Assembly (NCBI GenBank): GCA_032358255.1
Contig: JAULBX010025596.1
Location: forward strand, 1-58,996
DNA: 58,996 nucleotides
Reading direction: 5' to 3'
From: Heterotrichella gracilis
Taxonomy: Eukaryota; Sar; Xanthophyceae; Tribonematales; Xanthonemataceae
Below are positions 573-57,400 of this stretch, in pieces. The notes under the pieces were generated by a model. It searched no databases. It saw only the letters and a list, made by a program, of their open reading frames with translations, and was not told the DNA's origin. Within the stretch, counting starts at the first letter, position 1. Each line of letters opens with the position of its first letter. The position numbers and the translations under genes are program-made.

Positions 573-3500
573 GTGGTTGATTTTGGAGGCCCTCCCATTC
601 GCTGCGGGCGGTGTAAAGCCTACATGAACCCTTTCATGCGATTCGTGGACAACGGGCGCAAGTTTGTGTGCAACTTCTGTGCCTTCCAAAATGAAACACC
701 CACGGTAAGACACCTAGTGGGACCATGCGCACTGTGCAGTTGGGCATTGCCTTATGTTGCACAAACCTCACCCCACCCTTAGTAGGGGTGAGGTTGCACA
801 CTTGCACACCCCACCAGCCACTGGCTTGCATCGAAAGCATGTGCCACTTCCATTTCCCACCCCCGTGCAGTGTGCTCTAGTGCACAAATGAACCATGCAC
901 CTCAACCAGCGGTGAAAACCCTTGTACCGCATCTGTGCTGGAGGGTCAGACTTTCCAGTGTGTTTGCCACCCTTGGTTGGCTTACAACCCCTATTGCCAT
1001 CCCCGTTACACAGGAGTACTTCTGCTACCTGAGCCCCGACGGTAGGCGCAGGGATGCGGATGAGCGGCCGGAGCTGTGCAGGGGGTCGGTGGAGTTTGTG
1101 GCCTCGCCGGAGTACTCGGTGCGCGGTGTAAGGTGTAGGGTTTAGGTGGCAGGTTTTGGAGGCTTTAGGTGGCACCTGCATGGCGTGGTCGAGGGTTCAG
1201 GGTTTAGGGTTTAGGGTTTAGGTGGCACCTGCATGGCGTGGCAGTCCAGTTGCATGGCCAGTACTTCAGGATACAGGGTTGATATGCGTACCTGGTGTCT
1301 CAGATAGTATTCATTACAGGTGTAGTGGTTCCATTGCAATACGGTGTACCATGTTTGCCACTCATGCCACCTGGCATGTGTGACTTGCTTACGGAACTGA
1401 ATAGGAGACCGTTATGGAATCTATTGCCACAAATATATTTATGGCATATGTTCCTTTAAATCAATATCTGCCTCAAGACTTTGCCTCCATGCACCTCACC
1501 CCTTGCCTGTGCCTGTGTGCCTTCCCAGGTGCGCGCCTGCATGCCCCCCACCTACCTCTTTGTCATCGACGTCACCTACACAGCCATAGCCACGGGTGCA
1601 ACGGCAACTGTGTGCTCCTCTATTGCGCGCATACTGGATGAGCTGCAAGGTGAGGGGCCCTAAACCCTAAACCTTCATCCATGAGATTGAAACTCTGTTG
1701 GGAGGAATATCTTTCTGGCCATGAGTGAGCTTGAGCAAAGCATTGTAGTTGGCGGTTGCGACAAAACGTTGCGGTGAATTATTGCCTTTCCTCATTATAA
1801 TCGTTTAGGCACAAATAGTTGTGGGGTGGAAGCGAGCTGAGAACCGATGCCAGTTGCAAGTCAAAGAGAGCGATGCTAGCATATGGCCATATTTCACGTG
1901 CTCAGGAGGCTTACACAAAAGGCAGCAGTTCTGGGCACACAGCACATTGATCTGGTGCATTTGGAGTACAGAATGCACACATGTTGGAATGTATGGATAT
2001 CGCATGCCCCCTCCACACACCCCTCTCCTCCCGCACCCCACACACCCTCCACCCTCAACCCCACCCTCCCGTCCTCCAGGTGGCGCCGCCGCGCGCGTGG
2101 GTGTTGCCACCTTTGACTCCACCGTCCACTTCTACAAGTTGCAAGCGGGACAGGTGTCGCCACACATGCTGGTCATGGCGGACACAGCCGATGTGTACTG
2201 CCCGCTGGCCGCGGCATCGTGCGCGCCGCTGGCAGAGTGCAAAGCGGAGGTGGGGGAGGGTGGGGGTGTTGCAAAAGGCATATGGCTCTGATGGAGAGGG
2301 GAGGTTTATGGGATAGGGGGGTGGGAAGAATGCAAATTGCATGTTGGTCATGGCTGACACCAGCCGGTGATATATATTGCCCACTGGCTGCTGTACGCAG
2401 TATGCGGCTGGTGGGAGTGCAGAGCGGGGTTGGGCAGGGTGGGTGGGCGGTACGGTTGCTGCAAAATCGTGGCCTGGAATGGGAAGGTGCATGGGTGGTG
2501 TGGGGTGTGGTAGATGAGGGGGCACCTGGTCATCTACAGATCTTGCGGTGTGCTATTCTCAAAGGACCTAAACCCCAACCCCAAACCCTAAACCCTAAAC
2601 CCTAAACAGTGCTGTTCTCAAGGGACCTCGGGTACCCCACTCGACAATATTCCTCTCCCTCCCGTTAACATTATATATGCCCCCCCCCTTTGCAGATTGT
2701 ACACCTGCTTGAGTCCATCCCCCGCCTGTTTGCCGGCACGCAAATCAGCGAGGGGTGCGGCGGGGCGGCCATCAAATGCGCAATTGACGCCCTCAAGGTA
2801 AATAAATGTCATCACCCTCGTGTGATCATGTTCACATTGAGCACCATCAGTCATCTGTGATCGCTGATCCAGTCGTGTATATCACGGTTTTTTATCACTT
2901 GTGATTGCCAATGTGAGCGCATGTACCTTCACGCTGGTCACTGGTATCATTCCCTTGTCAAGCTGGTCATCAATCAGCACATTCCCACCAAGCTGGCAAA
3001 GGTAGCAGGGAACGCTGCCTGACCTCTCCCTCCCCTTTCCTCCCCTACACACAGGCTGGAACTGGGGGCAAGGTGATCCCTTTCCTGTCCAGCCTACCGC
3101 GCGTGGGCGACCTGGCGCTCAAACCCAGGGATGCTCAAGTTGGGGATAGGGATCAGCAGGACATTCTCAACCCGGCATCCAAGGAGTACCGCAACATGTC
3201 GGTGGATGCAGCGGACTACCAGGTGTGATGATGCATGAGTACTTACTCATGCAGAGGGTGGTTACCCTAGGGTTTGCTGTGGCATACTTCGCAGTACAGC
3301 CAGATTTGCCTGATCGCGATTCAGCAGGCATCCTCCACCTAGGAGTACCGCTGCATACGGCGGTGCATGCAGCATACTGAATTCCTCAACTGTACTTTCT
3401 ACAGCCCTGAATCCTGTGAATTCCAAGACCCTTGACCCCCCTCTTCCTCCCCTTCCTGCAGGTGTGCATCGACCTCCTCTTGCTCACCCTGAACCCTACA

Positions 3501-6500
3501 CCCTACACCCCATCTCACAATCATCTCCTCCCCTTGACACCCCTTTCCCCCCCTCCACAGGTGTGCATCGACCTCTTCCTGCTGACCCAGGCCTACGCTG
3601 ACGTGGCAACCCTGTCTGAGCTGTGCCACCCCACCTGCGGCCAGGTGTACCACTACCACCCATTCACACCCGCGGTGGATGCCGACCAGCTGTACAACGA
3701 CCTGCGCTGGAACGTGATTCGGCCACAGGTGGGGTGTGTGGGTTTGAGTGCGGAGGGGATGGAGGGGATCGGTGGGGATGGCAGGTGTGGGGGGGCAATG
3801 GAACATGCACTGCAGCAGCAGGCTTTTAGGGTTTATTGCTCTTGGGCTTTTACTCAAGGGTTTTCAGTTGCACTCTCCACTTAAACCCAAAGCCGGCCCA
3901 CCCAACCACCCTCACTCCCACCCCTCTCACCCCACCGCAGGGCATGGAGGCCGTGGCCCGCCTGCGCTGCAGCAGCGGCCTGTCTGTTGACCGCTACCTG
4001 GGCTCCTTCCACAAGCGCACCCCCACAGACCTGGACCTGCCTGCGGTCAGCTGCGAGCAGTGCGTGGTGGCCAAGCTGGTGCATGAAGAGAAGCTGGCGG
4101 AGGATGGCGAGGTGTACGTGCAGTTTGCGCTGCTGTACACCACCATGGGGGGGCAGCGCAGGATACGGTGCGTGGCGGGTGTGGGTTTGGTGGTGGTGGT
4201 GGTGGTGGTGTGGTGGTGGTGGTTACGATGGGTGGTAGGGTGGTTGTGGAGGGTGATGCTGTGTGGCAATTGGGTACCTTAATCACGAGTGGACATCACC
4301 ACCATCCGAGTGGAAATTCCAGGCGCTCCCCTGACGGCCTCACCTGCACTCATTTCTGCATGCCACGTCGCCGGCACGGAACCCTGAACAGTCTCACTGG
4401 CCCTAAGTCCCATGTATACCTGTACTGGTGTTATGCTGTTACATCCATCCCCATCGCCACCCCCTCTCACTACCTTGATCTCCCCCCCCCTTCCCCAGGG
4501 TGCACACCCTTGGCATCCCCTGCACCACCTCCCTTGGCACTGTGTTCCGCGGTGCTGATTTGGACGCAACCACCGCCTACGTGGCGCGGGTGGCGGCGCA
4601 GCAGCTGGCGGGGCAGTCGCTGTCGGCATCAAGGGACAGCGTCACAAAGGTGGGGTACTCATGAGTAAATATATACTAAATAAATAATGATGATTTTCAG
4701 CAGCGCGAGGGACAACGTCGCAAGGGTGCATGGGGCGGGTGGGGGTTTGAGGGCGTCTGTGTTACTAGCAGTGGCATGTCTATCCGGTATACTATCGTAC
4801 GTTTGTTTTGTCATTTAAATTTTGTTTTGACGTTGCAGCATTTCTGTGTTCCGCCACACTTGCTCCTACTGCGAGCAATGACCCTGCCAGTACCCCGATC
4901 CCCTGCAGGTGTGCGTGGGACATGCTGTACTCCTACCCGCTGGCAGGGTTCCCAGACTTGGCGAAATTTGGGGTCCCAGCTCCCAAGGGGAACACAAAAT
5001 AATCATTTAAACGGGGATTTGAACCATTTATAATCACCTATAATGTAGTTTATAATGTAATTTGGAGGACAATTAAGAGTGTAATCATGCATGTAATCAC
5101 ATGTAATGTAAAATGGGCGAAATATGACCCCTCCTGGCTAAGTCCCAGGCGAATTTAGGATTTTGGGGGCTGGCAACCCTGCCCGCTGGCACTGAACCCC
5201 CCTTTTCCCCCATCCCTTGCAGGTGTGCGTGGACGCGCTGTGCTCCTACCGCAAGCACTGCGCCAGCGCCTCCTCCTCAGGCCAGCTCATCCTGCCAGAG
5301 GCCCTCAAGCTCATGCCGCTGTACTCGCTGGGAGTTACCAAGGCGCCGCCATTCAGGTGGGTGGGTGGGTGGGCGCGTGGCCTACTTTTGCTCAGGTGGA
5401 TGTGATCCTTCTGGCTGTCACGCTGCACGCTTTGGCCCCCTGCGCCGTGGCACCCTATGAGCATCCACCCATGCTGTCCCCAATGGTAATGTACCATTGG
5501 AACACACGCACTAAACCCAGCAGTAGGTTCCGGTCCCCCACGCCCCCCCTCCCCTGGCGCCGCAATACTACCCTAAACCCTAAACCCTTGTGCAGGATCG
5601 AGGCCCAGGTGGACAGCCGCTCCTTCTGGCTGTCCCGCCCGCCTCCCCTGACGCTGTAATACCTACCCTAAACCCTAAACCCTTGTGCAGGATCGAGGCC
5701 CAGGTGGACAGCCGCTCATTCTGGCTGTCCCGCATGCTCTCCCTGCCGCCCTGCGCCATGGTCCCCGTGGTGCACCCGCGCATGCTGGCCCTGCACACCC
5801 TACTGGAGGGTCCCGAGGAGGACCTTGCCCTACTCGAGAGTCTGCCCCTGTCCAGTGAGAAGGTGGATGTCGAGGGGGCCTATTTGCTGGAGAACGGGGT
5901 GGAGGCCTTTATCTACTTTGGCAAGCAGGCCAGCCCCCAGCTGGTGTCGGAGCTGATAGGTGCGCTGCTGGGGGGGGGGGGGGTCATTGCACGCTAAATG
6001 AATAACTGCCAAAGAGCTGAAGTTTGATAATACCGGCCCCTTGGTGCCAGGGCCGCTGTGTCACAGCAGGCGCTCCCTGCCCTGTAACCACATGCTCGCC
6101 CTCCGCTAGCTGCATGCATGTGAACTCTGATGATCCCCTGGCATAACACCACTGGGGCACCCCTCGCCCCCGTCGTCTCCCAACTCACCCCCCACCACCC
6201 GCAGGCACCGCCTCCATCGACGCCAGCACCTCCGACCCCCTGCAGCCCCTGCTGCTGCCCCGCCTGCCCACACCCACCTCGCGCCGCCTGCACGCCCTAC
6301 TGGACACAATCCGCCAGCAGCGCACAGCCTACCTGCACCTGCGGGTGATACGCAGGTACATACGGGGCTGTAGGTATTAGGGTTTGCAAGCCGGATATGA
6401 GGGGCGTGTAGTGTGTGCATGCAGCTGTTCTTCTCGCTGGCCCGGGGTGGCATTTAGGGTTTAGAGTTAAGGGGTTGTTGCTGGTCATGACGTGTCCTGC

Positions 6501-8240: not shown

Positions 8241-10090
8241 TCATCTGCCATACGGGAAGGGGTCGTCGTACCCCGGTGGCTCCTGCGCCTGCACCAGCAG
8301 CCTGCCTTGGGGTACATGGCTGCGCACAGTGCCAACCCGCGCAGGGGGCCAGCAGATGGCCAGTACCCGGCCCTGAATGAGGGCCAATGGGACCTGCAGG
8401 GGGGGTGGAGCAATGGTGGGCGTTGAAGGGGGACAGGTATGTACATGGCCCTCTAAATATTCCAAATGATAAGTTGAAAAGAATAGAAGCACGACCATTG
8501 GTAGGGGGAAGTACCATTGTTCTTTGTTTGTCATCACAATACCAAGAATGGCACATCATGTCCCAAAAACATTTAGTAATGTTTATTTCCCAACCCTGAA
8601 GCACACCCCTATGCATCTCCAAACACTAGCGCGCCAGTACATGCCTGGCACAGGCCCCGCCCCGTGTCCCCGCCCCATGTCCCCGCAGCCTCACCGCTCC
8701 GTATCGTGTGAGCGAATCCTCGCTGGCGCCCGTGTGGTCACCCTCGACCCAGCAGTGGCCCTGCACGTGCACCACAATTTTTGGTCAGAGTTGGCAACTG
8801 CAAGCATCCCCTGTGGGAAGCGTCTGCGCGCCTGGTGCGCGTCACCAACAGCAGCACCAACATTGATCGATAACGACGACAGGAGGGGAGAGGGGCCATG
8901 CATCACAATGGGTCAATGTGGCAGTGCTCATCTGGGATGAGCATAGGCTGCACCCACGCGGCCCCTCCTCACCTTTGGTATTTTCTCCACCTGCACCCTG
9001 CCGGGCAGCGTGACCCAGTCCCCCTCAATCCCGATCAGGCGCTTGATGAGCAGCTTGCGGGGCTCGTTGGGCGACCTACGCATGCAGGTATGTGTGTTCA
9101 GCAATGTATTGCCGCAACCGACCTTCATATGCCGTTGCAAGTGAGAGTGAGTGCACGCGCCAAGCTAAATGCATCCGCAAAAGTATTCATGCGCACTCTG
9201 ATGCACCACTTCTTCCAATGCCAGCGTGTCGCTTGCCAATGCCCTTGTGTTGCTTGCCAATGCCGATGAGCCGCATGCCAATGCCATCATGTGGCATGCA
9301 AGATGTTGTGTACGAAGCCTGTGAGGTGCATAGAGTACCCAAACTGGTAAAGCATATGTGCCTAGCCATCCACCGCACTTGAGCAGTATCACGTCCCCCC
9401 TGCGGTAGCGATATAACCGCACAGACACCTTCTCCACCACCACCCAGTCGGAGCGCCCGTCGGCAGTTGAGTTCAGGGTGGGCTGCATAGACCTGCGCGG
9501 CACCATGGGCGGTGATTAGGGTTTGGGGGTCAGGGTTTAGGTCGAGTGTGGGCTGCATTGACCTGCGCAACAACATGGGTATTCATTAGGGTATTGGATT
9601 TAGGATTTTGCAGTTGAGCGCCGGCTGCATCGACCTGCGCAGCAACACAGGCGGTGATTAGGGTTTGGCGTTTAGGGTTTAGGGTGGGCTGCACTGACTT
9701 GCGCAGCAGCACGGGCGATGATTGAGCGGTGGTGCTAGTGCACGCCAACAAGCTGCATTGTTCCATACATCCATCTGGCGATTGTAAGTGCATATTGTCA
9801 AGGTACTAGAGCGTGCTGTGAGGATACTCTGCAAAGTACTGCAGCACAGTCAGGCTAGCTTCAATGAGGTGCAGTGTGTCTACAGGGACACGTGGCACCG
9901 GCAAGCCTGACACTGTCTGGACATGCATGCATATGTAAGTTGTGTCTAGGTTCAAACTGCTCCAGTGCTGCACCTACTTGCCGCTCACTCGCGCTGCCGT
10001 CAGCACCACGTCATTGAAGGTCAGCACCACGGGGGTAATCCAGAAGGCGTGCCGCGCTGTATCCTTGACCGTGCGCCACGCGCGTGCCAT
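8241..10090 (-). CDS. IMMP2L: Mitochondrial inner membrane protease subunit 2
   Basis: This is an S26 signal peptidase that removes bipartite presequences in the mitochondrial intermembrane space as part of the IMP complex. Five minus-strand exons (10090-9978, 9492-9379, 9075-8973, 8760-8695, 8393-8241) join to exactly 183 codons, giving 182 residues; human IMMP2L has 175. A hydrophobic N-terminal segment (residues about 16-36) is followed by the catalytic Ser39 in SMQPTL and the catalytic Lys87 in LIKRLIG. The family box GHCWVEGDHTGAS and the C-terminal ICWPPARVG are present. The start codon at 10088-10090 gives a leader of normal length. Intron 1 holds three extra copies of the exon 2 start (separate entry). 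A plastid type I signal peptidase is unlikely, because length and motifs fit the IMP2 subgroup. Confidence 0.95.
9475..9724 (-). repeat. Four tandem copies of IMMP2L exon 2 start
   Basis: In gene sense the functional acceptor and exon start lie at 9494-9475. Three more copies lie upstream in the intron at about 9590-9547, 9663-9614 and 9724-9683, with periods near 70, 72 and 64 bp. Each carries TGCGCAG (CAA in the farthest) followed by GTC.ATGCAGCC, so the active-site Ser-Met-Gln triplet is repeated (Ser-Val-Gln in the farthest). The spacers are CCCTAAA-type tracts in gene sense. The functional copy is the only one that continues into the rest of exon 2. Confidence 0.93.
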
Positions 10091-21327: not shown

Positions 21328-24300
21328 ATGCTACCCTCACGGCGGTGTGCGTTGCAAGCCCTGGTGCGAGCAGCCGTCAGGCAAGGGTGGCCCCCACAGC
21401 CCACCCAGCAAGCGGCCATTGCAGTGCTGGCCAGGTTGACAGAGGGACCCCAAGAGGCTAACACTATATCACGCTATGCCGGTGAACTGCACACGTGGTA
21501 CGTCAATATTTCCTGTTGGAGCCTGTGCTCCTGGCTGTTACCAGGGGCATGCTGTCTGCATCCTCTTGCCAGGCTGCCCAATACCAGCACTGGGGTTTAA
21601 ATTCGTGCTTGAGCTGTGCGTCCTAAGAGGCCCACACTGCCTGTGAATTGCACACCTGGGATGGCAGTCTGGGCCCCTTCTTTGCTTGGCCGTTGCTACT
21701 GTGTTTCTGCTTGCATGACTAAGCCATTTTGCAATGTTGCCCAGCACAGCACTGGGGTCATCCTCCTATTCCTGAGCATCCTATCATACCCATGTTGCAC
21801 GTGCAGGAGGCATTCAGCCAGGTTCTTTGCGTCAGCAGCTATCCCAGCAGCAGCAGACACAGAGGAGGAGGCTGAGGTGGGCCCATCACCATCCATCAAG
21901 GCCGATAGGGAGTTGGGGCGCTTCTCCACCCTACCCAAGCACCTCCAGGAGGATGTACAGGCGCTGGCAACCAGCGCAAAAAGCGGTAAGCGGGATTATG
22001 CACAGGGGTGGGTGGGTGGGTGGGCGTGCAGGTGCAGGTGGGGAGGGTGGGGACGGACCCTAGACCCTAAAACCCCTACGTGTAAGGGCTTACTTATTCT
22101 TGTCACCTGCAGCTTTGTACTACAGCCAGCAAGCCCCTTTTCGTCCCTACCCATGCACTCCAGGAGGACGTACATGCACTGGCAACCACATGCGCCGCCC
22201 CACGTTCGCAGCCCCGCTCTCCGACCCCATCGCTAACCCCATGTGTACCCCATGTGCACCCATCCCCACGCCGAGTGCCTCGCTGCCCCCAGGGGAGTAC
22301 GACAATTCTGTTAGCATCATCCACCACTCTCAACTGTGCCAGCACCTGAGCTACATACTGGCCATAAAGCACCTGCACCCACTGACACCCGCATCCGTAC
22401 CCTCAAGCCCCATCATCAAATCCCCCCACCGACGCTGCCCCATCCCCACCCATGTGCACCCATACTCACCCCGATCCCACCGTTCTCCCAGGGGAGTACG
22501 ACAGGTGCACCCGCATCATCGACAATTCTCAGCTGCGGCCGCACCTGAGCTACAACCTGGCTATAAAGCACCTGCCCCCGCACCTGGCGCTGCGCATGTT
22601 CGATCGCATGGTGCGAACAGGCGTGGCCCCCGACTCCTTTACCCTAAACGAGGTTATCAAGGCCAGGGGAGCGCTGCTGCAGCCCGAGGCGGCTCAGGAG
22701 GTGATGAAGAAGTACCACGAGGTGGGTGGGCAGGGAAACCCTAAACCCTGGATCTGAATCGCCATCATGCAATTGCGATGCTGCATCTGCGTGTGCGTAT
22801 GCGGGAGGTGCGAAGCGGTACAGCCCCGGGTCTCTATACCATGGTATTGTGATGTCAGAGGGGATACAACAGCCTGAGACGGCTTGAGGGATGATCAGGA
22901 AATAAACCCTATTCACTGGTTGAATTTTTGGTAAGCCCCAAACCCATCCAGCCACCTAGGGTGGCACTCCAACAGCTCCAGACAGCCAGGTGGTTCAATG
23001 GAAACCCTAATCCTAACCCTAAGTCGCTACTTTGTTTCCTGACTGATTCTTAAACCCGCCCACCCACCCAGGCCGGCATGGAGCAGCGCATCGAGCACTT
23101 CACCGCCCTCGCCGCAGCCTTTGCCAGTGTGGGCAAGCCAGAGCGAGTGCGGGGGGTCATGGCGGACAGCACCGCGGCTGGCCACCCCCACTCCTCCCAC
23201 TTCTACAGCATCCTCATCCGGGCGCTGTGCAACTCCGGCAGGTGAGGCGCCTGGTATAGGGTTTCAGGGAGGGGGGGCCGCCAGTTTATAGGGTTGAAGG
23301 ACGGGCGTAGCACCAGGGCCCAGCACTAGAGAAATTCCTAAACCCTGAACCCAACCCTTTGAGCTGGTGTGGTTGGTCAGGGGCCCAGCCGCTCAGCTTC
23401 ATGCTATTTATGTATTTGTTTTACAAGTATTAATATTGTCTAAGTTTAATGCTAATATCATCCCTGTGCCCTGTGCGATTTGGGGCAGGTGAGGGGTGCA
23501 TCCTTTGACAGCTCTTCTGCATTCAATAGGAAGCACGCCTTGACAGCTAGGAGTGCAGAAGAGCTGTTATGGGATCGGGGCCTCATGATCTCCCTATGGT
23601 GTAACAACATGCATCCTGTGGTGTAAGCAACATGCACCCACACCCCGCATCCCACCCGTCGCAGGCAGTTTGAGTGTAACGCAGTGCTGGCTGAAGCCCA
23701 GGTGGCGGGGGTGGTTATGACCGAGGACTTGTTCCGCGCCCTCATCTACTCATTTGGGGTGAAGGGGCAGGCGGACAAGGCCAGGGTGTACCTGGATACC
23801 ATGCAGGCAAGGAGAATGGCTGGGCTTACATGGATGGCATGGGATGTTGTTGAAAGATGCGGGGTTGAATGTTACCTCGAAAGCATTAATGTGAATGTGA
23901 AAATGGAAGGGAAATCCAAACGGGTAGACGTATGGTAGATGTGAGTGTGGTTGTGACTATGAATGAACAGGCTGACAAGGGGTACATGTATCTTATTGCA
24001 GGCAAGGTGGGTTCCTCGGATGCATGGCATGGGGTTATTAAGAATGGATAATGGTCTAACGAAGCGTATAACAAAGTAGTTACCGTTGCTTTTCTCTTGT
24101 GTTTGCAATTGGTAAGACAACCTGTAATTGTGATGATTCTGATTGTATAAGGTATCTCAGATCGGTTCTTTTTTTGATGGTGATGTAATGTGTAAGGAGT
24201 CCATGTGCAGACAAATGAAATTGTACTCGTTTGTAAATCCATGATTATTTGTACTGGTTTTCCTACAGGCCATGGGCGTGCGGCCGGGCATCTCCACCTA

Positions 24301-27300
24301 TGGTGCGATGATCAACGCATACGCAGACTCCAAAATGCCGATGGAGGCACACAGGGCATTTGAGCAGATGGTGGAGTCTGGGATAAAGGTAGGGATTGGG
24401 AGGGAAACCCTAGGGTAGGGTCTGACTGGGTTGTGCAGTTGAGAAGGGAAGGGGAGGGGTGGAGGAAACCCCAGGGTAGGGTTTGAGCGGGTGGTGGAAT
24501 CGGTGATGAAGGTGGGGGGTCAGGGGAGAAACCCTAGGGTAGGGTTTGGGCGGGCTGGTTGAGTTGCAAATGAGGCGGATGAGGGCTGATTGAGTGGGGT
24601 GGGTCTACGGTGGCATGCGGCACGGTCTGGTCACTCTCGTTTAGTGGCAAAATTGGTGAGGAGGTTGGGTTTGGGGTGCTGCATTGCAGGATACAACTGC
24701 TTGCCGCTGCATCCGACTGTTCAACATTAAAAATCTGACTGAATTGCTGGAATGTATGTGAATATCTATTCCAAGCTGTGTTAACAACCAACCAAGCCAG
24801 TCAGTTTCCAGTCCGTTTGCGTGCGCTTCAAATGCATTCCTCCTCTGCGCCACCCACCTAACCCCCCCCCTCCTCCTTTCCCCCCCACAGCCCAGCCTCA
24901 TGACCTTCAACATGGTGATCAAGGCATACAGCAGGGTGGGGGATGCGGCACAGGTGCGGGGAGGTAGACAGGAGCAGGGAGGGTATTTTGGGTGCGGGTG
25001 GGGTGTGGGGGCGGCAGGCCTCATGATGGCGGTGTGTGAGCGAATGCTGCTGGTGGGTATGGTGGCTTTGCCCGGGCATGTAGGGATAAGATCAGAACAG
25101 TGCTTGTCTACGCGCCTGGATGCGGGACCCCTAACCCAACCCCGCATGTTCTATGATCCGCTCATCTGCTGGTCGCATCGGCAGGCACATTTAGTGGTAA
25201 GCTCAGCCCTGATGCATACGCCTGAATGTGGTCCCCAAAATCCCTTCCCAATTATCCCATCCCCGTCCGTGCAGGTGCGCAGCATCATCGGCAAGATGCG
25301 CATGAGTGGCTTCCCCCCCGACGAGGTCAGCTACGGGTGCCTGGTGGAGGCGCACGCTCAGGCCGGGCAGCCAGACCTGGCAAGGGAGGCGGTGGATGAG
25401 ATGTGGAGGGCGGGGGTGCGGGTGGGGGCCATACCCTACACCTCGCTGCTCAATGCGTATGCGGAGGTGCGGTGATGTGGGGATTCCTGAGTTGGGGTCT
25501 GTGGAGTGTGGAGGAAGGCAGCAGCTTTGGTTAGTGGGTTTGTGGTTTAAGGGTAGACCTTCTAGTGGGAGAGTGCGATCGTGGGAGGGAGGCGGTGGGT
25601 GTGAGTGGCGGGTTGGAATCACACCATGCACCTCGATTGCTCAATGCATATGCAGAGGTGGGACAGAAAGTGGCAGCAGGATAACACCGTTACTGTGGGC
25701 ACTGCGACCCGGCCAACAATAGTAACAATTGCAATGCAATAATGACAACATACATTTTTTGGTTTAAAGTTGAGCCTTTTCACCTTTCGCTGCAGGCCGG
25801 TGACCTGGCCAGCGCCCAAGGTGTGCTCCAGGAGCTATCTGCCAAGGGCATAAGACCCACCGCCAAGACATACAGCTCCCTCATCATGTGGCTGGGGCAT
25901 TACGGTGGGTGGGGATGGTTTGTAGTATACCCCACTCCCTGATTGCTAAACCCTACGTAATGAAACCTCAAACTTTACAGCTCGCTCCTCGTGTATCGAG
26001 GGCACGCCACGCATGCTTATCTGTCAGTGGCAAACGCTGCAATGTCCTTTAACCATGCACCACCGCTGCCGATGGGTGCCATTGCCACTGCCACTGCTAC
26101 ATCATGCATCACCATGGCTGCCATGCTTACCTGCCCCATCACCCGTCGCACCCAACCCCCACCCCAGGCCGCTACGACTCCGCGCGCGAGCTGTACCACA
26201 CCGCGCTGCTGCTCGAGCACCTTGCCTCCAACAAGGTCATCCACCTGTCATACATAGAGGCAACCATGCAGCAGTGGTCGCATTCACGCACAGATGCGGC
26301 GCTGCTGGCGGAGGCCGAGGGGTGCTTTGCGGCCAACCTCAAGTACTTCCCACCGCTCTTCCAGGTGGGCATCAGGGGGCTGGGCCTGGCGAGGGGCGGA
26401 GGGTTTTAGGGTTTATGTTTTAGGGTTTGGGGTTGAGGGTTTGAGGCAGCCAATCTCAAGTACTTCCCGCCGCTCTTTCAGATGAGAGGGAGAGTGTGTA
26501 TTGGTAACCTGTATTCGACTGGGTAAAATGAATGGTGACCATTTTCTCAGGGCAGCTCAGGGAGCATTTAATTTATAAATGTGTTGTTCTGGGGGGACCT
26601 AGGTGGTATAACCGTTTGATAAACTGCTTTATAGCCCAACTAGCAACTGCGGCGGCATTATCAGCGGCTGCCTATCACCGCTTCATATTGCAGCCTCTCT
26701 ATGGATCAATGGGAAGGATTGTACTTAAGTTAAATTTGTACCTCAGTGTAGAAGCTGACAGCATTTTGTATATAAATTTTCAGGGCCCCACTGGGTACCG
26801 CAGCCTCATCATCGACCTGCACGGCTACGGCCACTTCACCAGCCAGCTGGCGCTGCTGGCGGGGATGCAGAACCTGCTGGAGCGGCGGCGAGCAGGGGAG
26901 GAGCTGCCCGAGTCAGACATGCAGGTGCGCGGATGTGTAAGGTTTAGGGTTTTGGTTGAGGGTTGAGGACAGGCGCCTCTCTGATGCTGCCCGAGTTAGT
27001 AATGCTGGTGTGCGAATTTAGGTTTCAAGGTTTGGGTTTAGGGTTGAGGACAAGGCAGCTCTCTCGGTTTGGAAGCCTCTTCTGTCTATTCAGTCAAATG
27101 CGTTTGCATGGCATGATGGCCACTGTGCTCTTAAGCTGCCTGTGGCGTGTGCTATGGTAGGGTCTTGTGGGCAGGAGGACAATGCCCTCCTCTTTGCTAA
27201 CCCGCTGCCTTAAACAATGGGGCCAGTGTCACTGCCTAGTTGTATTTTTGAGTTTATTTGGGTGTGGTGGTGTGCAGATTGTGACTGGCCGTGGCAAGCG

Positions 27301-36500: not shown

Positions 36501-39500
36501 TTGCTTGTTCTGTATCTCTGTGGTATCAACTTTTTATCGGGATGTTTTGTTCATTCTCATTATGAAGATAAATCATCTATTCTAATTTTGACCTGTAGGC
36601 TTTCAAGGGGGTGGTCACCCGGGCCCGCACTGCCCTGCACTTGGCTGTGGGCCACTGGGGCAGGAGAACGCTGCAGCAGTGCTGGCTCATCTGGGTGGAG
36701 GCCTGGCTCCGCAACCGGGAGTGGTTGCAAGGGGTGCAGAGGGCGCGGCTGCTGAGCAAGGGGCTGCGTGCATGGCACACATGGATACAGGTACGTTTGT
36801 TGCCGTTGAAATCCAAAGTAAGAGATTTAATTTGAGCGCCAGCATGTTGACCATGGGCCTGATGGCTAGGCATGAGGTGCGTAGCAAACCGCTGATTGCA
36901 GTATGCATTGTGTGTGATGGCTGGGCAGCCGTGGGCCATGCGGGTGGCGTGTGATCGCTTGACACCTGGCTGCATAAAAATAGGAAGACATAATACTTGT
37001 TCAGTATTAATCAATACATTTTTTTTAATGCATTATTAGCGATGTGTGTGTAAGTTCAGGGCATTTCCCTCTTAAGTAGTTTGCATGAATCACTAATGTT
37101 TACGTGGACCATCTGAATGGCGTGTGGTGACCATCTGTGACCTTTGTGGGTGGGGTGTGCAGGCAAAGGGGTTATGCAGGCTCAAGCTACAGCACCTGCA
37201 GCAGCGGCACCAGGTCCACCTGCAGCGGAGGGCCATCACTGCGCTGAGGGGGCATGCGGCCATGCACAAGCTGGTTGGCCTCATGAACTGCAAGTGGAGG
37301 TAAGGGTTTTGGGGGTTAGGGGGTAGCGTTTTATGGTTAGGGTTATAATACAAAGCCTTTGTCAGCTGCAAATGGGGGTAAGGCATTGGAACGTCAAGAA
37401 GATGCACCAGGCGCTGTCATTTCTTCCTTCATTAGGAAGGTGGGTGGATTCTTCAATGGCAGCACGCAACCCTAAGGGTTGTTGTTCAGAAATCCAATGC
37501 CAAGGCTGAGCTGGGTGGCGCAAGCCGAACTGCACCACGTGTGCAAGGGTGACTGCTGTATCGATACTTGTGCCAGCGCTGTACTGCCGGAACACATGCA
37601 ACTCATATCTGACTACTCACCAGCAGGCAAGCACAGCTGCCACAAACTGCCTGATAGTAATATTCCACCTCACCACCATCTGCTTGCTGCCGCAGGAGGC
37701 AGCACGTGAGGCTGTGCATCAGGGAGTGGCGGAAGCAGGCGGCGAGGGGCCTGGCCCTGGGCAGCATCATGAAGCAAGTGCACGCTCGCCACTGTGCCTC
37801 TGTGCTGAAAGTGTGCGTGAGCAAATGGCGCTGGGTGACCGCAAGCAAGGTGGGTGTTGTATAGGGTTTAGGGAGTACGGAGGAGGGTTGAAGGTACATG
37901 CTCATTCCTGGTTGCTTCTACTTTTGCATCATGGCGCTGGGTAACCGCAAAGAAGTTGGGTTTCATATAGGTTTTAGGGAGTATGGAGCAGGTTTTAGGG
38001 TAAATGGGAGTTTCTTCTCGTCTCTGATATCTGGCTGTTTCTTTGCATTACCCACATAAGCAAGGGAATTGACATGATTCTTTGCCCCTACATTCCATGC
38101 ACTACAACCTACTATGGCTTGCTCTTATCAGTCTTCTCAGGCAGCAACCCTGGCCCCGTGTGTTGGACCAATTTCAGCGTGATTTCACTGTTGCAGGCGC
38201 TGCTTGTTCGCGTGTTTGAAGGCGCCCAGCAGCGGTGGCATTGGCAGTGCACCCATGGCCACCACTTTGCCACCTTCAACCTCATGCACAGGGCCATACA
38301 GCAGTGGCAGCAGTTTACTGTGGAAAAGGCAGCCAAAAGGCGGGAGGCTGCCCGGCAGCAGGCAGCCGAGGCATACAGGTGGGCGAGGATGTGGGTGTGC
38401 TCCTGTTGACTGCATGGCATGCCATGAAGATGTGCTCTAGGGTTAGATGGAAGGATGTGTAATGACCTAGTTGGGTGTGTAGACCTGTTGTTTGGCAGTA
38501 TCGCTTTTCATTTTGACAGCAAATTATTGGATTGTTTGAATTCATAGCAAGAAACATAACAAGCTGCTTGTAAGAGTCTCCCTATACAGTATCATATACC
38601 TTGCCATGACAGGACACCCTGGTACATGGGGACAACAAAATAAATAAATTAATTAATAACTACGCTCCTCATGTCAAGAATGAGGGCGTTGGTTGAGGAA
38701 GAGACAGAATGAGAGAGAGCCAGCCTCGGAGGCTGGTCATTCCCTCATGTGTCCCTACCATGGGCGCAACAGTCACCTGCATTGGGTGATGTCCCGTGTC
38801 GGTTACGCAAACCCAGGTAAACCCTAGTCTTTCAACAGTGTGCTGCTGGCTGCTGTGCAGGCGCCAGAACCTGGCAGTGAGCGCGTTCCAAGCATGGCAG
38901 CTGGTGGTGCAGCAAGCATGGCTGGCCACCCTTAGCTACCACCTGCAGCGACGTGCCTTCAGGGCATGGCACAGATTCTCCGCTGCGCAGGCACTGCCAG
39001 GTGGCAGCAGCTTGGCGAGCTGCCGCAAATGCCTGCGGAACAAGGTATGCCGATTCCATGATCACATATTGCGTTATGCCCACAATGGGTGGAGTACCGT
39101 TGGTCTGCTTTTGCTTGCGGGCCTTTCGAAATGTTTTGGTGGCATTTTGAGCATTCTTGCAAGCACGGACCTCTGCCATGCGCTGGTGGAATAAATGATT
39201 CAGTAGATTATATGTCCTGCTTAATTGCTGCAACCAGGTGCCATGCATTTGACAGGACGCCATGCATCCACTGGTGGGTTGCAGGGGTATGCCTCTGAGT
39301 GGGACGTGAGGCGCAAGCGCCTGGCCCGGGCCGCATGGACCGCATTCATGCACAAGCTGCATGCAGCCGATGCCTTTGCGCGCCGCACCCGGCTGCTCAA
39401 GGGCCTGCTGGCGTTGGTGGCGTTTGCTGTGCAGTCCATCAGCAGCCAGCTGGCGTTTGAGCGCAAATGGAACCGCACTGTTCCTCTGGCGCGGGTGAGT

Positions 39501-41487
39501 CGGGGATGCTGGGACCTAGTGCCAGGTGGCAATCTGTGCATTTGGGTTGACTTGACTTGATGATTGTTTGGCAAAAACAACAGCGATGGGTGATGATTGC
39601 GTTGCCTGTACTCTCCACAACTTTACCCTAAAACCTCATGTCATGCCATCCTGCTCACCTCGGATGGTGTGCAACTCCATATGTCCTGGCCCATGACATA
39701 AAAACTGCTCCGCCACGCGGGCAAGGAGGGTCGTGCCTCACTCGACCCGGGGTGCCAACAATCCCCATCTACACGGGGATCGACACAGGGACCTAAAACA
39801 AATTTGCCAAGATTATTTCTAGCTTATTGCTGTGCCGTAGCCTTTCAGGCTAGCGGCCGCCGGTACCCGCCGTCCGCTCGCCTTGTAAAGCACGCCAAAA
39901 ATCGTGTTGGGCCTGCAGGCTGTGCGCACATGGTGGGAGAACCTGCATGCTGCCCAGCAGCACCGCGCACAGCTGGCATGGGCTGCTGGCTACCACATGC
40001 GCACCCAGCTCAAAGGCGCGTGGAGCCGCTGGCAGATGGCCATGCGCGAGCAGTACCAGCATGCGGCGGCTTTGCAGGTAAGCTACCAGACTTCACTGGT
40101 AGCACTATGGGATTGTGCCTGTTGCCACCGAGGTTTTCATGACTGGATTGTCACTGGCTTTGGGCTGCGTCTGGAAATCCAATGCCAAGCTGGTCGCTGT
40201 GGTTGGGTACCCTGACGTGAGCCTTCTTGTGCGTATGCTTGTGCTTCCTCAAAAATTTTGGCTCACAGCGCCTCGCACATTCCCTTGTCTGTCTTCATGC
40301 AGGCAGAACATGGTTTGAATATTTGGCCAGAGTAATATAAACAATTGATAACATTTTGTAACTTTTTGTTTCATTGTACAGGCAGCAGATTGGCACTACC
40401 CGCGGCGGCTGGCGAACAGCTGCCTGCGGGCGTGGGCCCGGAGGTGCCTGGTGAAGCAAATGGCAGCACAGCACTGCAGGGCCAGGCAGCTGAAAGCTGC
40501 GATGCGTGCGTGGTCAGGGGCGCTGGCGGGAGTGCGGGAGGACGCTGCTTGCAATGATCACAGCAATCAAAGGTGGGTTACCGATGTAGTGAGTGGGATG
40601 AGATGCTGCGTTCTAAAATTGAAATCGTTTTTTTGGTGGAAATGTATTTAAGGCACTATAGATTGTTTCTCACTTCCAGGGTAGTGTAATGTCACCCAGC
40701 ACTGCGCACACTATGTGTAGCACGCTGCTGCTGCAATCATGGCTGCATCAGCAAAGCCCGTCAGCAGCACACCCGTGTATGCGGGGTGGCATTGTATGAA
40801 AGGACTGGCTGATACCGGCTTGCAACAACAGCAAATAGGGCGTGTTCTGATGGAAATGCTGATAACACATGAATGGTTGATAAATCGATGTGCTGCATCT
40901 GCAGGTCAACAAGGTCACCAATGCACAGCAAACATCCAGGACAGGTGGTGCTGAAAGCAAAGCCCATTGAGGCACAGGCAAGCTGCCGCAGCCCGGCCGC
41001 ACATTCCAAACCCTTTAGTGGGGTTATCACCTCGGCAAGCTGCCTGCATGCATTGCCGCAACGCACCGGACACAGCGCTGGCGATGCGCGTGCATGGCAG
41101 CTGTACGCACGCAGGCTGCAGTCCAAGGCGTTGGACACATGGCGCCTGGTGGTGCACATGCAGAAGCAACAGCAACAGCAGCCAGGGGCACAAAAGCACT
41201 GGATGCAACAGCAAGGTCAGCCATGGATGCCCTCGTATAGGTCCTATCAACCACATCAACCAGGTGGGGGCCAGGCCCCAGGAGGTGCATGTGCACAGAA
41301 GCGGCAGTTGCAAGGGGCGGGGTGTGCACCACACTGGCTGCTACTGGGGCCGTACATGTTTGCGGGGGGGCGCTGTGCGAGGGAGGAGGAGGGTACCGCA
41401 GGGTGCATAGACCCGCGCACTCTTTCGTGTTTGAATGAGCTGCGGCAGCAGCGGCTGTTGAACAAAAGGGGGCAGGCAGTGGTGTAG
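30523..41487 (+). CDS. SFI1: SFI1-like centrin-binding repeat protein (large)
   Basis: Sfi1 proteins are long helical rods that bind centrin at centrosomes, spindle pole bodies or basal bodies. Seventeen exons: 30523-31210, 31439-31593, 31824-31988, 32295-32471, 32710-32849, 33206-33459, 33713-35598, 35801-36381, 36599-36790, 37163-37299, 37696-37849, 38197-38378, 38861-39044, 39285-39494, 39919-40077, 40382-40572, 40905-41487; roughly 2010-2020 residues. Repeats of the AFxxWxxxx type occur in both halves: AFCGWARG, ALTYWHAW, AFKAWVWQ, AFTRWRDL, LRAWHTW, AFQAWQLV, AFRAWHRF, AVRTWWENL, AWSRWQMA, LRAWARR. They flank a long Ser/Gln/His/Pro-rich exon (33713-35598) that looks disordered. All phases close except exon 7/8: the best donor (35599, GTGAGA) and best acceptor (35798-35800) differ by one base of phase. 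A weaker donor at 35621 would restore the frame. Family assignment is by repeat pattern only. Confidence 0.82.
34020..34290 (+). repeat. Internal coding repeats in the SFI1-like long exon
   Basis: The protein segment MRPTDPGHSHDGKLAQPCNP (about 34030-34089) is echoed by MRPAQADHAHDWILAAPGNP (about 34156-34215) and then, in part, by QPDHGWELAVARNP. Each of the first two is preceded by a Ser-rich run. This points to unit duplication inside the disordered middle of the protein. Confidence 0.65.
35305..35430 (+). repeat. QQHVSV-type coding tandem repeat
   Basis: Codons for QQHVSVAVVDQLQQ and QQHVSVLDVDLVNQLQ lie in tandem at about 35309-35411, with a third partial unit (HQQPIV). The DNA word CACCAGCAGC and its relatives repeat. 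Confidence 0.7.
37285..37395 (+). repeat. Copy of SFI1 exon 10 3' edge
   Basis: ACTGCAAGTGGAGGTAAGGG (37287-37306, exon end plus donor) is echoed by GCTGCAAATGGGGGTAAGGC (37365-37384). Between them is a degenerate TTAGGG tract (37311-37346). The copied donor is still GTAAGG, so a cryptic donor is possible. Confidence 0.75.
37826..38000 (+). repeat. Tandem copy of SFI1 exon 11 3' edge
   Basis: AATGGCGCTGGGTGACCGCA plus donor and a GGGTTTAGGGAGTACGGAG tract (37824-37883) recur at about 37931-37989 as CATGGCGCTGGGTAACCGCA and GGTTTTAGGGAGTATGGAG. In the copy the donor region reads AAG/TTGGGT. Confidence 0.85.
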
Positions 41488-48451: not shown

Positions 48452-48778
48452 GGATCTTGAGAAGCGACAAACACCAGCTGCCTCCTTCGCGCGTTTGTAG
48501 GGACTGGTACGTTGTTTTCTTGTGTTGTCAAACTTGATCCCTAGTATGTGCAGTGGCCAGAGGTGAATTCAAATGCATGCATATGGAATGGAATCTGATG
48601 CCCCAGCAAGGTGACAGCTCTTCACGTTGCCTGTAGGTAACAACTCACCCAATATCACAGAGACCAATAGCGTTAGAACGAGACAGGTGCACGGCAGTGC
48701 TCTGCAAAAGACCACAACTATCAGTGCATGGCCGTGTCCAGACAGAGGTAGACTGGTTTGAGCGCTTCCCCAGCAGAG
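48452..48778. promoter_or_regulatory. Short divergent promoter, ELMO / thioesterase
   Basis: Only 327 bases separate the two proposed start codons, so this must act as a bidirectional promoter if both starts are right. It contains ATGCATGCATATGG at about 48573-48586. The ELMO start is the less certain of the two. Confidence 0.45.
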
Positions 48779-49901
48779 ATGTTTCGCCACGGCAGCAACC
48801 TTGCAAGGAGAGTCCATGTAGATGTTGTCCAGCAGCTGCTTCGAAACCACAGTACCAGTCCTGGAACAGCTGGCAAGCAGTGGAACTGGCTCAAGTCAAT
48901 TGGGCACGACGTCAACCCCTGCAACAGCAAGCTTCATCCAGCTGTCACTGAGGCAGGCATAGCCCCTGTGGGCGAAGAGGAGCGTGCTGTGCAAGAGGCG
49001 TACACCCCTGAGAGCACGTGCTTTGGCTGTGGTGAGTGGACTGTGCACTGGCGGATATCAATTGCGCACACGTGAACTACCTGGTTTTTCCTAAGAGATA
49101 GCTGTCGCGGCACTTGTGGCAGGGCGTGTCTGCCCAGTATTTGATTTTTGACTCCACCAACATGCTGTTCCACAGGCCCAGGGAATGTGGAAGGCCTGCG
49201 CCTCTCCAGCTTTCGGATACAAGGAGGGCTCGAGGCGAGGGTGACGCTCCCATCTAAGTATCTAGCCTTCCCAGGTGAGCACATATCCAAATAAAAACCC
49301 TAGCTCAGCCCATATCCAAATAAAAACCCTAGCTCAGCCCAGCCCAAAAAGCCCCAATAATTTGCCCTAATGGGTCCAGCTGTTGCTGATAAGCTGCCAC
49401 CTTGTAGGCATCATCAATGGCGGGATCATTGGCGTGCTGTTTGATTGCCATGGCAATTGGACGGCGGCCATTGCGCTGATGGACAGGTCATGCCTGCCCA
49501 GGCCGCCGCTGACGCTGACCTATGAGATGCTGGTAAGCTACAGTACCCTCGCCAATATCTGTGCTGCTCAACGCCACCCGGTGCCCACAGCGCAATTGCA
49601 TGTCAATAAATGGCACACCTCTGGGCGCAAAATAATTCATCCTATTGTGACACCCCGACCTGACAATGGGCACGTGGTGTGGCGCGTGTTGCAGCTCAAC
49701 TACAAGGAGCCCACCCCTCCCGACGAGGAGCTCATCGTGCGCAGCCAGATTGTGAAGATCAAGGAGAGCACCACGGTGGGCAACGGCAAGGCCACCGTGC
49801 AGGTCGACCTGTCGCTGCTGCAGACTGTGGGAGGGCGGGAGAAGCTGCTGGTCACTGGGACGGGCATCTTCAAGAAACTGGGGGCGCTGCGGGCACTTTA
49901 G
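48779..49901 (+). CDS. Hotdog-fold (4HBT) acyl-CoA thioesterase-like protein
   Basis: The protein likely hydrolyses an acyl or aryl thioester; the substrate is unknown. Exons 48779-49031, 49176-49274, 49408-49532 and 49695-49901 give 227 residues with closed phases. The N-terminal about 60 residues are Arg/Ser/Asn-rich (MFRHGSNLARRVHVDVVQQL) and could be an organelle presequence. CFGCGPGNVEGLRL (81-94) is the motif that opens many 4HBT proteins of this subgroup. The hotdog helix region FPGIINGGIIGVLFDCHGNW (116-135) supplies the usual GG turn and an acidic residue (Asp130). The gene is divergent from the ELMO gene. Its stop codon lies inside a TTTAGGG element, and its last 75 coding bases are duplicated just downstream (separate entry). 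Confidence 0.9.
49282..49339. repeat. Perfect 29 bp tandem duplication in thioesterase intron
   Basis: CATATCCAAATAAAAACCCT plus AGCTCAGCC occurs twice head to tail with a 29-base period, just after the donor at 49275. The unit includes AAACCCTAG, related to the heptamer. Confidence 0.9.
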
Positions 49902-50041
49902 GGTTCATCGCCTAGGGTTTAGAGTTTCAGTGGGAGGGCGGGAGCAGCTGCTGTTCACTAGGACGGGCATTTTGAACAAGCTGGAGGCCCTGCGGGCACT
50001 GTGAGCTGTAGGGTTCATTGCGTAGGGTTGAGACTTCCAGT
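49827..50041 (+). repeat. Tandem copy of the thioesterase 3' coding end
   Basis: The segment 49827-49929 (last 75 coding bases plus the start of the 3' UTR) is followed directly by a diverged copy at 49930-50041. The copy would still read VGGREQLLFTRTGILNKLEA and end in ALRAL plus a stop. In the first copy the stop TAG comes from CTTTAGGGTT, a telomere-type heptamer; a second GGGTTTAG follows at 49915-49922. Confidence 0.9.
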
Positions 50042-54400: not shown

Positions 54401-57400
54401 GCTACCCCCCCTGCTTCGCAAAACGGCGACGCTGACGTGGCGGGTGGTGCCGCCAAGGAGCATGTGGGCGGTGATGATGTCATCAATGAGAAGGAGGAGG
54501 GTGGCGCCACCCCTGCAGCATCCCCCGCAGTTGACGTGGCACCAGAGGCTGCTGGCGACAGTCCAGCTCAGCGCAAGCCATCAGAGTCTCTTGCTGAGCG
54601 TAGCCCATCGGATAGTCCTGCCAAGCGCAGCGCCTCAGGTACTTTCATGAACCCGCCGTCATCTTGTTTTCGTAGTTTATGTCGCTTTTTGTCTGTCTGG
54701 GCGCTGCCATCAGACAGGCCAGGCCAAGCTAAGCATTCTCTTTCATCGTACATGTAATTTTGCTCACGTCACAATAAATGAAAATCTCTATGGATATTGT
54801 AATGCTTTCGAAATTGCTTATGTCTTATTTCATTTCTTCTTAAAAATGAATCATTGATTGATATCTCGTTATAATTTCTTCCTCAGGCAGCCCCGTCAAG
54901 CGCAGCCCCTCAGCCAGCCCCGCTGCATCAGGGAGCAAGTCAAAATCCAAGTCCACCACTTCATCCTCATCCAGTGACGATGCCTCATCCAGCGCCAAGT
55001 CGGGGTCGGCAAGCAAGTCACGGTCCCGCAGCCGGTCGCGCAGCCGCGGGTCGAGGCGGCGGCGCAGCAGGGGGCGCGCCAGCAGGAGCAGGAGCAGGTG
55101 GGGCAACCCTAGACCCAAAAACCTAAGTCATAAACCCCAAACCCTGAGTCATAAACCCTAAACCCCAAACAGGCGTGGGTCGCAGCGGCGGCGCAGCAGG
55201 GGGCGCGCCAGCAGCGGCAGTTGGTTGGGGCCGCAAATCAAAGGAAACCTCAGGTGGACTTTAAAACAAAACAAAACAAATAAATAGTTGATTGGAAAAA
55301 AGCAAACGGTCAGCAAGCCAACATTAACATATTCAGAAAAAGTGAGGAAAAAGCATGATTTGTCCCCAAACATCCACCTGCAGCCATGATGCATCTGCAC
55401 ATGTTTCATGCGACGGTGTTGCTGTTTCTCAACTGTCCCCGTTGTTTTGTCCCAGGGACCGCAGGCGCTCCCGCAGCCGTGAGCGCAAGGCCAGCCCCAA
55501 GCGCTGGGAGGACTACAAGCCAACCACAGAGTGAGTGCATGAACCACTTATGGAAACCCTGGGCACCTACGCCCATTGTTGGCATGGAACCCTGCAACCT
55601 GCCCACTGCACGCATCCTGCTCGACTGCTTGCTTATTGCTGATAAGCTAAGATCAGCTACAATCAGCTATGATCAGTTTTGATCAGCACCAGGGTGGATA
55701 CTGATCCTGGTCACCTGCACACCTTGAGGCTGTGTGTCTCATGAACACCGAATGGTGATTCCCATGCACGCATCTCCCCACGGAGGCGCATAAACCCATC
55801 CAACCCTGCCCTCAGCCCTTGCACTCCCCTCCCGCCACCCCTCACAACCCCCAACCCTCCACCCCACCCAGCCCCACACTGAATGCCCACTACTCCACCA
55901 CCTCACCACCCCCACCACCCCACCCACCGCAGGATTCAGGACCTGTTCATCCGGGCGCTGAAGGAGGTGCTTGCCCGCAAGCGCCCCCCCTGGAACATCT
56001 CCCTCATCAATGACGTCATGCGGCAGTACGACAGGGGGTGGAACGTGCAGCGCAGGGTGGGGCTGGCTTTCTCTGCATTCTGCAAAAGGTGAGGGGTTGC
56101 TTGGTGGGGAGGGAGAGGGGGAGAGGAGAGGGAGGGGGCATGGGTGGAGGTGGGAGAGGGAGGGGAGTCAGGTGGTGTGTGGCAGGTTGCCAGTGGGTGC
56201 AAGGTTTATGGGGGTAGAATTGCGCAGGTGAACAGTGTGGTAGGGGGTGGAATGTGCAGGGGAGGCTTTCTTGGCGTTGTGCACAAAGTGGGCACAAGGG
56301 TGGAGGGGGTGGTAGGGTTTGCAAGGGGAGGAGGGGCAGCAGACTGGGGGCCCAAGGGATGGGGTAGCTGGCATGTGTCCAGTTGCAAGTTATCACATGG
56401 CCGTGGTGTGGTGAGGCTAGCGCAACGGCCACCTGGACATAGACCATCTAAGTTTCTTTTAGTAATAGCCCAAACCCCAACCTAGCCCCTACACCCTACC
56501 CCCCCCCCCCCCTGCAGCTTTGAGCGCGAGGGCCACCTGGACATTGACCATTCAAAACCCTAAACCCTAGACCCTAACCCCGACTCCTGCGTGCAGCTTT
56601 GAGCGCGAGGGCCACCTGGACATCGAGCAGCGCGGCCACTCCATCATGGTGCGCGGGTCAAAGTACGAGCGGGAGGTCAAGCGCAGGTCGCCTTCGCCGG
56701 TCAGGAGGAGGGGGGGCAGGTCGCCATCGCCCATCCGCCGCCGCAGGTAGGGTTTGAGGCTCAGAAGGGGGAATGGGGTGGGGGTGGGGCTGTGCTTATA
56801 CTTTAGGGTTTAGGGTCTGGAACTGTACGCCTGGTGGCGGGTGTGGGGTGGGGCCTGTGCGAGCTGGCGTGTAGGGGGGTGGGTCGCTGCCGCCCGTCCA
56901 CCGCCAGAGGTGGTCATCAAGTGGTGTTCCTGTGATTTAATTGGGTTGTGATCCAATGTGGATGTGGTGCATCGCGATAAATGTTGCTGTTTGCGAGGGG
57001 ATCTGCTGAGCTATGATTTGATGCGAGGTAATCAAATTCAAATTTTTTGCGCAGGTCGCGCAGCCGCTCCCGCCAGCGCCGCAGCCCCAGCCGGCGCAGG
57101 AGCGGGTCAAGGGACAGGCGGCGCGCAGGCAGCAGGGGGGGGGGGTCACCCAGGTAAGGTGGGGGGAGGGAGAGCGGGGGCGTAGCGTATGCGAAGGTCA
57201 TGTGCGCGGTATGCAATTTCACTGCCACGGTGTTGGTAGCAGTGGGGCCACGCGTGCTGCCCCGGTGTAACTCCAAAATAGCGGATGGTAGGGTAGTGGC
57301 AAGGTTGGTAGGGTAATGGCAAGGTGCTAGCAGTGCGCTTGCAAGCTGGTTCCAAGGTGGTAGTTAAGGTGGTTGGCAAGGTGGCCGGAGGGTTTATGCT

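Follow-up and report, generated by a model that had tools for sequence, protein, structure and literature searches.

Telomeric heptamer tracts and direct duplications of exon edges in the introns of Heterotrichella gracilis

Introduction

How do introns come to hold extra copies of the exon edges that adjoin them, and why do short runs of a telomere-type heptamer lie between so many of these copies? The question is raised by a 58,996-nt contig of Heterotrichella gracilis (JAULBX010025596.1, assembly GCA_032358255.1; labelled C308), referred to in the following as the window. A first-pass annotation of this contig had described such copies, many enclosing degenerate TTTAGGG or CCCTAAA tracts, and had ascribed them to break repair in which telomerase-type or templated filler is added, giving intron growth and sometimes new introns. 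Here, we report that local direct duplications are frequent in the introns of both the window and an independent sample of the genome, that telomeric tracts fall between the copies well beyond chance, and that the sites are probably scars of local break repair.

Results

Direct duplications in introns

The genome searched comprised 68.5 Mb in 903 contigs. An independent sample was made up of 20 blind 10-kb stretches (L009–L028, from contigs C2–C21), 200 kb in all, which together with the window gave 259 kb; unless stated otherwise, the results refer to both. Splice sites were predicted by a small self-trained gene finder, which called 479 introns. Because short predicted exons persist in the gene models, only 227 confident introns were used (67 in the window and 160 in the sample), each with a score above 8 and with both adjoining exons at least 45 bp long.

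After removal of low-complexity pairs, local direct duplications were found in 73 of the 227 introns, compared with one after shuffling. In the window, 23 of 67 introns were duplicated, spread over eight gene models, and one further case lay at the end of a coding region, which bears out the earlier count of at least 15 introns or 3' flanks in seven genes; in the sample, the figure was 50/160. When 60-bp exon edges were searched for in their own intron, they were found again on the donor side in 18/227 and on the acceptor side in 19/227 (score ≥14), against expectations from other introns of 0.27 and 0.20, respectively. The duplications are direct: on the reverse strand, no exon-edge copy reached a score of 14 in any of the 227 introns.

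The copies were 19–98 bp long (median 49 bp) and 72–100% identical in the 39 best flanking pairs, a range of identity from which it follows, as had been proposed, that they differ in age. The distance between copies, previously put at 30–100 bp, turned out to be wider, at 20–314 bp for the best pair in each intron. The description of the copies as carrying the splice site was correct for some of them: 40 of 117 pairs included a copy that spanned a predicted splice junction, and 49 were entirely intronic. Separately, we noted that copy spacing, taken from one best pair in each of 64 introns, clustered at about 80–136 and 186–215 bp with few values between; nucleosome-scale spacing is one guess at the cause.

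Identity and placement of the heptamer tracts

TTTAGGG is the telomere repeat of this genome, since six contigs (C70, C140, C526, C609, C717 and C770) begin with a heptamer array, the 42-mer (TTTAGGG)6 occurring within their first 76 bases with CCCTAAA outward. Contig C626 encodes, split over two pieces, a TERT-type telomerase RNA-binding domain (PF12009; E = 4.8e-13 and 8.0e-9). The heptamer also sits at non-terminal sites, inside contigs. Defined as runs of TTTAGGG or CCCTAAA scoring at least 12, 28 tracts were found in the window and 67 in the sample; this total of 95 compares with 0–12 per motif for 19 control heptamers matched in composition. Across the genome, there were 2845 + 2784 exact double heptamers, against 2 + 3 occurrences of the reversed pattern.

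Predicted introns contained 92 of the 95 tracts, in gene models that are without untranslated regions and promoters. Confident introns contained 63 tracts in 74,862 bp (0.84/kb), and sequence farther than 300 bp from predicted exons contained six in 47,359 bp (0.13/kb). Tracts were concentrated just behind the donor, with 20 of 63 starting within 20 bp of it compared with 5.9 expected (9/24 in the window, 11/39 in the sample). The confident introns also have a base skew along their length, the first tenth, at the donor end, being 35% G and 19% C and the last tenth, at the acceptor end, 35% C and 20% G.

Many tracts lie between copies

In a test that made no use of gene models, the 140 bp on either side of each tract were compared. 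Direct copies (score ≥14) flanked 41 of the 95 tracts, 15/28 in the window and 26/67 in the sample, whereas swapped flanks predicted 0.58, inverted comparison gave 0 and tract-free intron positions gave 51/715 (7%). Among the introns bearing tracts, 28 of 48 were duplicated, compared with 45 of 179 tract-free introns (P = 2.4e-5); the association persisted when stratified by intron length (P = 0.0016) and in the sample alone (P = 3.5e-4). Where an intron had both, 28 of 41 tracts fell between the copies, against 13.4 for relocated tracts.

The same was seen in short words. Heptamer 6-mers occurred at 91/kb between copies and at 10.6/kb in the rest of the same introns (8.6-fold), and the 19 control heptamers gave 0.9–10.2/kb between copies. 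With the strong tracts taken out, the densities were 21.7/kb between copies and 5.6/kb elsewhere (3.9-fold). The two findings that would have undone the proposed link, duplications at chance level and heptamers placed independently of them, were thus contradicted by the independent sample. The enclosure of tracts by copies is nonetheless a partial rule: 45 of the 73 duplicated introns had no strong tract, and 54 of the 95 tracts had no recognisable flanking copies.

Sites in the window

The following sites in the window illustrate the arrangement.

1170–1241, plus strand: TTTAGGG tract 1192–1222 inside 19-bp direct copies 1170–1188 and 1223–1241, in an intron of the first gene; an older tract, 1125–1169, lies beside the donor.
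1658–1673, plus strand: CCCTAAA tract starting 8 bp past the donor at 1650, without recognisable flanking copies.
3429–3583, plus strand: acceptor-edge copies 3429–3484 and 3531–3583 (86% identity), with a CCCTAAA-like tract, 3486–3510, between them.
5570–5749, plus strand: acceptor-edge copies 5589–5654 and 5684–5749 (89%), with a tract ahead of each (5570–5588 and 5665–5683); the unit is 95 bp.
9470–9747, minus strand: exon edge present four times at spacings of 70, 72 and 64 bp in an intron of a minus-strand gene, with tracts 9516–9541, 9586–9608 and 9658–9685.
21921–22188, plus strand: direct copies 21921–21973 and 22137–22188 (85%), with tract 22057–22074 between them.
26332–26484, plus strand: donor-edge copies 26332–26367 and 26449–26484 (89%), with TTTAGGG tract 26400–26446.
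26903–27049, plus strand: donor-edge copies 26903–26931 and 26986–27014 (83%), with a tract after each (26935–26968 and 27017–27049) whose far ends agree.
37825–38001, plus strand: donor-edge copies 37825–37855 and 37931–37961 (87%), with a tract after each (37859–37895 and 37968–38001).
49827–49999, plus strand: end of a coding region, with 70-bp copies 49827–49896 and 49930–49999 (87%) and TTTAGGG tract 49897–49927.
55042–55231, plus strand: direct copies 55042–55104 and 55171–55231 (83%), flush with a 66-bp CCCTAAA tract, 55105–55170.
56419–56629, plus strand: acceptor-edge array with an older copy, 56419–56447, and copy 56513–56550 matching the exon's own 56592–56629 (95%); CCCTAAA tract 56555–56581.
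56711–56911, plus strand: older donor-edge pair 56711–56748 and 56874–56911 (76%), with TTTAGGG tract 56802–56816 between them.

The site at the end of a coding region involves no intron. There, at 49887–49902, the TAG of the inserted heptamer is the stop codon, and the second copy, just downstream, carries TGA at the same place. Because the TTTAGGG inserted at 49897 puts TAG in the very position that TGA occupies in the second copy, the protein end is unchanged.

Intron growth and intron birth

Duplicated introns were longer than the others (359 vs 276 bp, P = 7e-5), a difference of about one unit that is short of proof of growth because longer introns offer more room, and a larger target, for duplications. 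Similarity in the arrays was layered: in all eight arrays with at least two copies in the intron, the one lying closest to the exon was also the most similar to it. By simple arithmetic the chance of this order is 1 in 864, although any tandem growth beside the exon tends the same way. The earlier proposal that introns grow fits both results.

The proposal that new introns arise in this way fared worse. In-register copies at both intron ends, as tandem-duplication intron gain would leave them, were found in none of the 227 introns when a match of at least 19/30 bases was required. Lower down there was a weak excess between the end of exon 1 and the end of the intron (8 vs 3.1 expected at 15/30; 2 vs 0.2 at 17/30), and none, in the same 227 introns, between the start of the intron and the start of exon 2. 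These introns thus give no strong sign of having been born by tandem duplication, and the weak excess is on one side only.

One amidase intron in the sample (L016, 3337–3774), which has both a duplication and tracts, is bridged unbroken by three distant paralogs (C35, C442 and C111; 33–44% identity), and its inner exon copy is matched as a frame with four stops. Since the paralogs bridge it, the intron may have been either gained or lost.

Probable break repair and its alternatives

The sites are probably scars of local break repair, in which staggered breaks were closed with telomeric and other filler between duplications and some of the products were later expanded in tandem. In this model, the cuts in the two strands would lie about 20–100 bp from each other, in many cases spanning or adjoining an exon edge, and repair would leave the stretch between the cuts on both sides as a direct duplication. 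The copies would come to enclose telomeric heptamers along with some further filler of unique sequence. Where the duplicated stretch included a splice site, the outer site would go on working, and the tract and the second copy would become intronic; because the outer site still works, the event would be tolerated and the intron would grow by about one unit. Adjoining direct copies might at times expand further in tandem, tract included. We infer the break as the starting point, the stagger of the cut, and the insertion and duplication as one event. Tracts often abut a copy, with many gaps of 0–5 bp, the rest of the insert being unique filler, and in 18 of the 39 pairs there was a single tract, present only between the copies. 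Plain tandem duplication is not sufficient, as had been argued before, because it is incapable of placing a single heptamer tract between two copies. It does appear to contribute: at 26935/27017, at 37859/37968 and in the sample stretch L022 (8385/8455), the tracts of both units have private variants in common, which points to insertion and duplication first, followed by tandem copying of edge and tract together.

Telomerase is a plausible maker of the repeats at the break, and copying of repeats from telomeres or from other tracts is equally compatible with the data. If telomerase extended one broken end, the strand of the tract would, in the simplest case, set the side on which it lies flush with a copy. 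Among 28 informative pairs, strand did not predict the flush side: sense TTTAGGG tracts were flush on the left in six cases and on the right in three, and CCCTAAA tracts in 10 and nine, respectively. Of the earlier proposal of telomerase-type or templated filler at breaks, telomeric filler between the copies thus stands, and telomerase itself is not supported by this simplest strand test.

Also in favour of break repair, duplications reached the exon edge in 41 of 58 introns (those with a pair score ≥15 and one copy intronic) compared with about 19% expected under uniform insertion, although this excess is inflated because the best pair was chosen in each intron and because exon copies decay more slowly. 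Several further observations weigh against break repair in the form given above. Exact flushness is partly an effect of masking, because tracts were masked before alignment. There was no peak of tracts at the acceptor side (14/63 within 50 bp vs 12.8 expected). The divergence of tracts and that of copies were close in the median (0.115 vs 0.143, P = 0.18) and uncorrelated (rho = 0.17, P = 0.31). The data come from one genome, in which no empty orthologous site was seen: a search for a second copy (haplotype or paralog) of a 1.2-kb piece of the window found none, and two larger searches for empty sites returned dispersed repeats (39 of 874 candidates scored in one of them), from which we make no claim of absence. 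In addition, 21 of the 39 pairs had a further tract just outside a copy, compared with a chance level of 3.7% of random 40-bp intron stretches, and duplication of a pre-existing tract would give the same picture.

This last point is the basis of the strongest alternative, in which the tracts came first: telomeric tracts beside exon edges would have made the DNA fragile through fork stalling and template switching, and edge and tract would then have been duplicated in tandem. Besides the tract in or beside both units in those 21 pairs, this alternative accounts for the private variants common to both units and for the 54 tracts that have no flanking copies. At 24 flush boundaries, a mean of 3.9 bases continued into the tract compared with 0.6 after shuffling, as duplicated tracts would yield; as a measure of bases in register with the repeat at a broken end, the figure is confounded by such tracts. 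Set against this, the 18 pairs with one tract, between the copies only, would need a later loss after edge and tract had been duplicated, and the origin of the tracts themselves is left without explanation. Overall, we think it unlikely that the tracts came first.

According to a second alternative, the copies are ordinary tandem duplications of exon edges, and the heptamer is an unrelated intronic signal, such as a splicing enhancer, a branch-site-like CTAAAC or a telo box. Selection at the RNA level would favour one strand, and CCCTAAA was indeed the commoner sense sequence among the tracts of confident introns, by 44 to 19 overall and by 12 to 2 near acceptors. Near donors, however, the strands were equal (10 and 10), and the difference between donors and acceptors was borderline (P = 0.055). 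Near acceptors, sense TTTAG would make a false acceptor, which selection may remove. The association of heptamers with duplications, which holds within length strata, and the heptamer words between the copies largely refute this alternative, and we regard it as very unlikely.

Equally little is to be expected, in our judgment, of an introner-like mobile element with telomere-like ends and target duplications, which seems most improbable. The anatomy is that of an insert with direct repeats, and dispersed repeats are present in other introns of the window, but the length of the duplication varies over the whole 19–98 bp range and only the heptamer recurs: three fillers, joined in one query, matched only their own places in the genome. 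Assembly error or chance is barely credible, since, although tandem arrays can be misassembled, the copies differ from one another and all but vanish when introns are shuffled or flanks swapped.

A more far-reaching form of the break-repair model can be put forward only tentatively, and we are inclined to doubt it. Repair with telomeric filler would be a standing, genome-wide engine of intron growth at exon edges, chiefly just behind the donor, in which each round copies the edge, adds telomeric DNA and displaces earlier layers towards the intron interior, leaving a layered record of repair; telomerase or telomeric DNA would then be a general patch for internal breaks.

Other features of the window

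When gene models were checked, six of eight pieces had a Pfam match, which marks these genes as real: amidase, CAF1B/HIR1 propeller, PsbP, glycosyl hydrolase 18, gelsolin repeat and PPR. Taken by themselves, PsbP and the type of telomere would suit a green alga. An Rfam scan and a tRNA scan of the window gave no matches. Three dispersed repeats of about 110, 125 and 200 bp, at approximately 32902–33015, 38638–38761 and 39699–39903, each lie in an intron of one long gene. They are 82–98% identical to many other places, with 39 of 874 candidates scored, and are SINE-, MITE- or introner-like (short interspersed element; miniature inverted-repeat transposable element). Positions 58664–58863, the last 200 bases or so of the contig, match contig C725 over its initial 207 bases with 93% identity, which reflects either a shared repeat or a missed join.

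Discussion

The lengthening of introns and the mending of internal breaks with telomeric DNA are old questions that have usually been studied from rare events, such as mammalian telomeric inserts, of which a strict count gives a few hundred, and the new introns of Daphnia, which number in the tens. The density found here, with 67 tracts and 50 of 160 introns duplicated in 200 kb, would permit proper statistics and dating by copy divergence, and direct tests would be feasible if the organism can be cultured. If the break-repair model is true, it would explain how exon edges, and decoy splice sites with them, pile up inside introns.

The closest parallel is with the interstitial telomeric sequences of primates, rodents and horse, described as inserted during break repair, with target duplication ascribed to staggered breaks and with occasional random filler (PMC2246262, PMC7215372). 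The sites in H. gracilis are like these in having telomeric repeats inside chromosomes together with direct duplication and filler. In the mammalian counts given in those papers, target duplication is the minority case (horse 3/66 plus 2/66 complex, rodents 6/130, primates 4/25), a strict count of at least four repeats gives 229 human loci, and placement in human introns is compatible with random. Here, in contrast, at least 41 of 95 tracts have the duplication, the tracts crowd introns and donors, and instead of a few loci there are shorter tracts, which would number about 23,000 in the whole genome if their density in the sample is representative.

In Daphnia pulex, intronic direct repeats were explained by repeated staggered breaks that lengthen young introns, and were reported in 55/90 new and 100/617 established introns; the exon-edge repeats were 4–12 bp, and the main text does not contain the string 'telomer' (PMC4202315). 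The introns described here resemble these neointrons in that internal direct repeats exceed chance. They differ in their longer copies and telomeric inserts, and intron gain is here no more than a possibility. Direct repeats near the borders of many introns (4–30 bp, mean 11.4) have likewise been taken as break-repair scars (PMC11782384), although the abstract of that study has no telomeric inserts, which are present here. In the tandem genomic duplication model, a new intron forms between in-register AGGT copies (PMC3443670). The duplicated segment holds splice sites there as here, but in H. gracilis the edge and its splice site recur within an existing intron, with an insert between.

Plant telo boxes are densest in 5' untranslated regions and reach 72/Mb in rice introns, and their authors propose an origin through telomerase and recombination (PMC3022908). 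Like them, the motifs in H. gracilis are short, telomeric and scattered through genes; unlike them, they reach 1282/Mb in confident introns, with 96 counted over 74,862 bp, and form short arrays flanked by duplications. In the open-licence literature, we found no paper that joins telomeric inserts, exon-edge duplication and introns, which is weak evidence of novelty. The sites work like telomeric insertion at staggered breaks, a class to which they probably belong. Telomeric insertion at breaks and intron growth by staggered breaks are each known; what appears new in H. gracilis is their combination, the long duplications, the density of the sites and their placement on the donor side.

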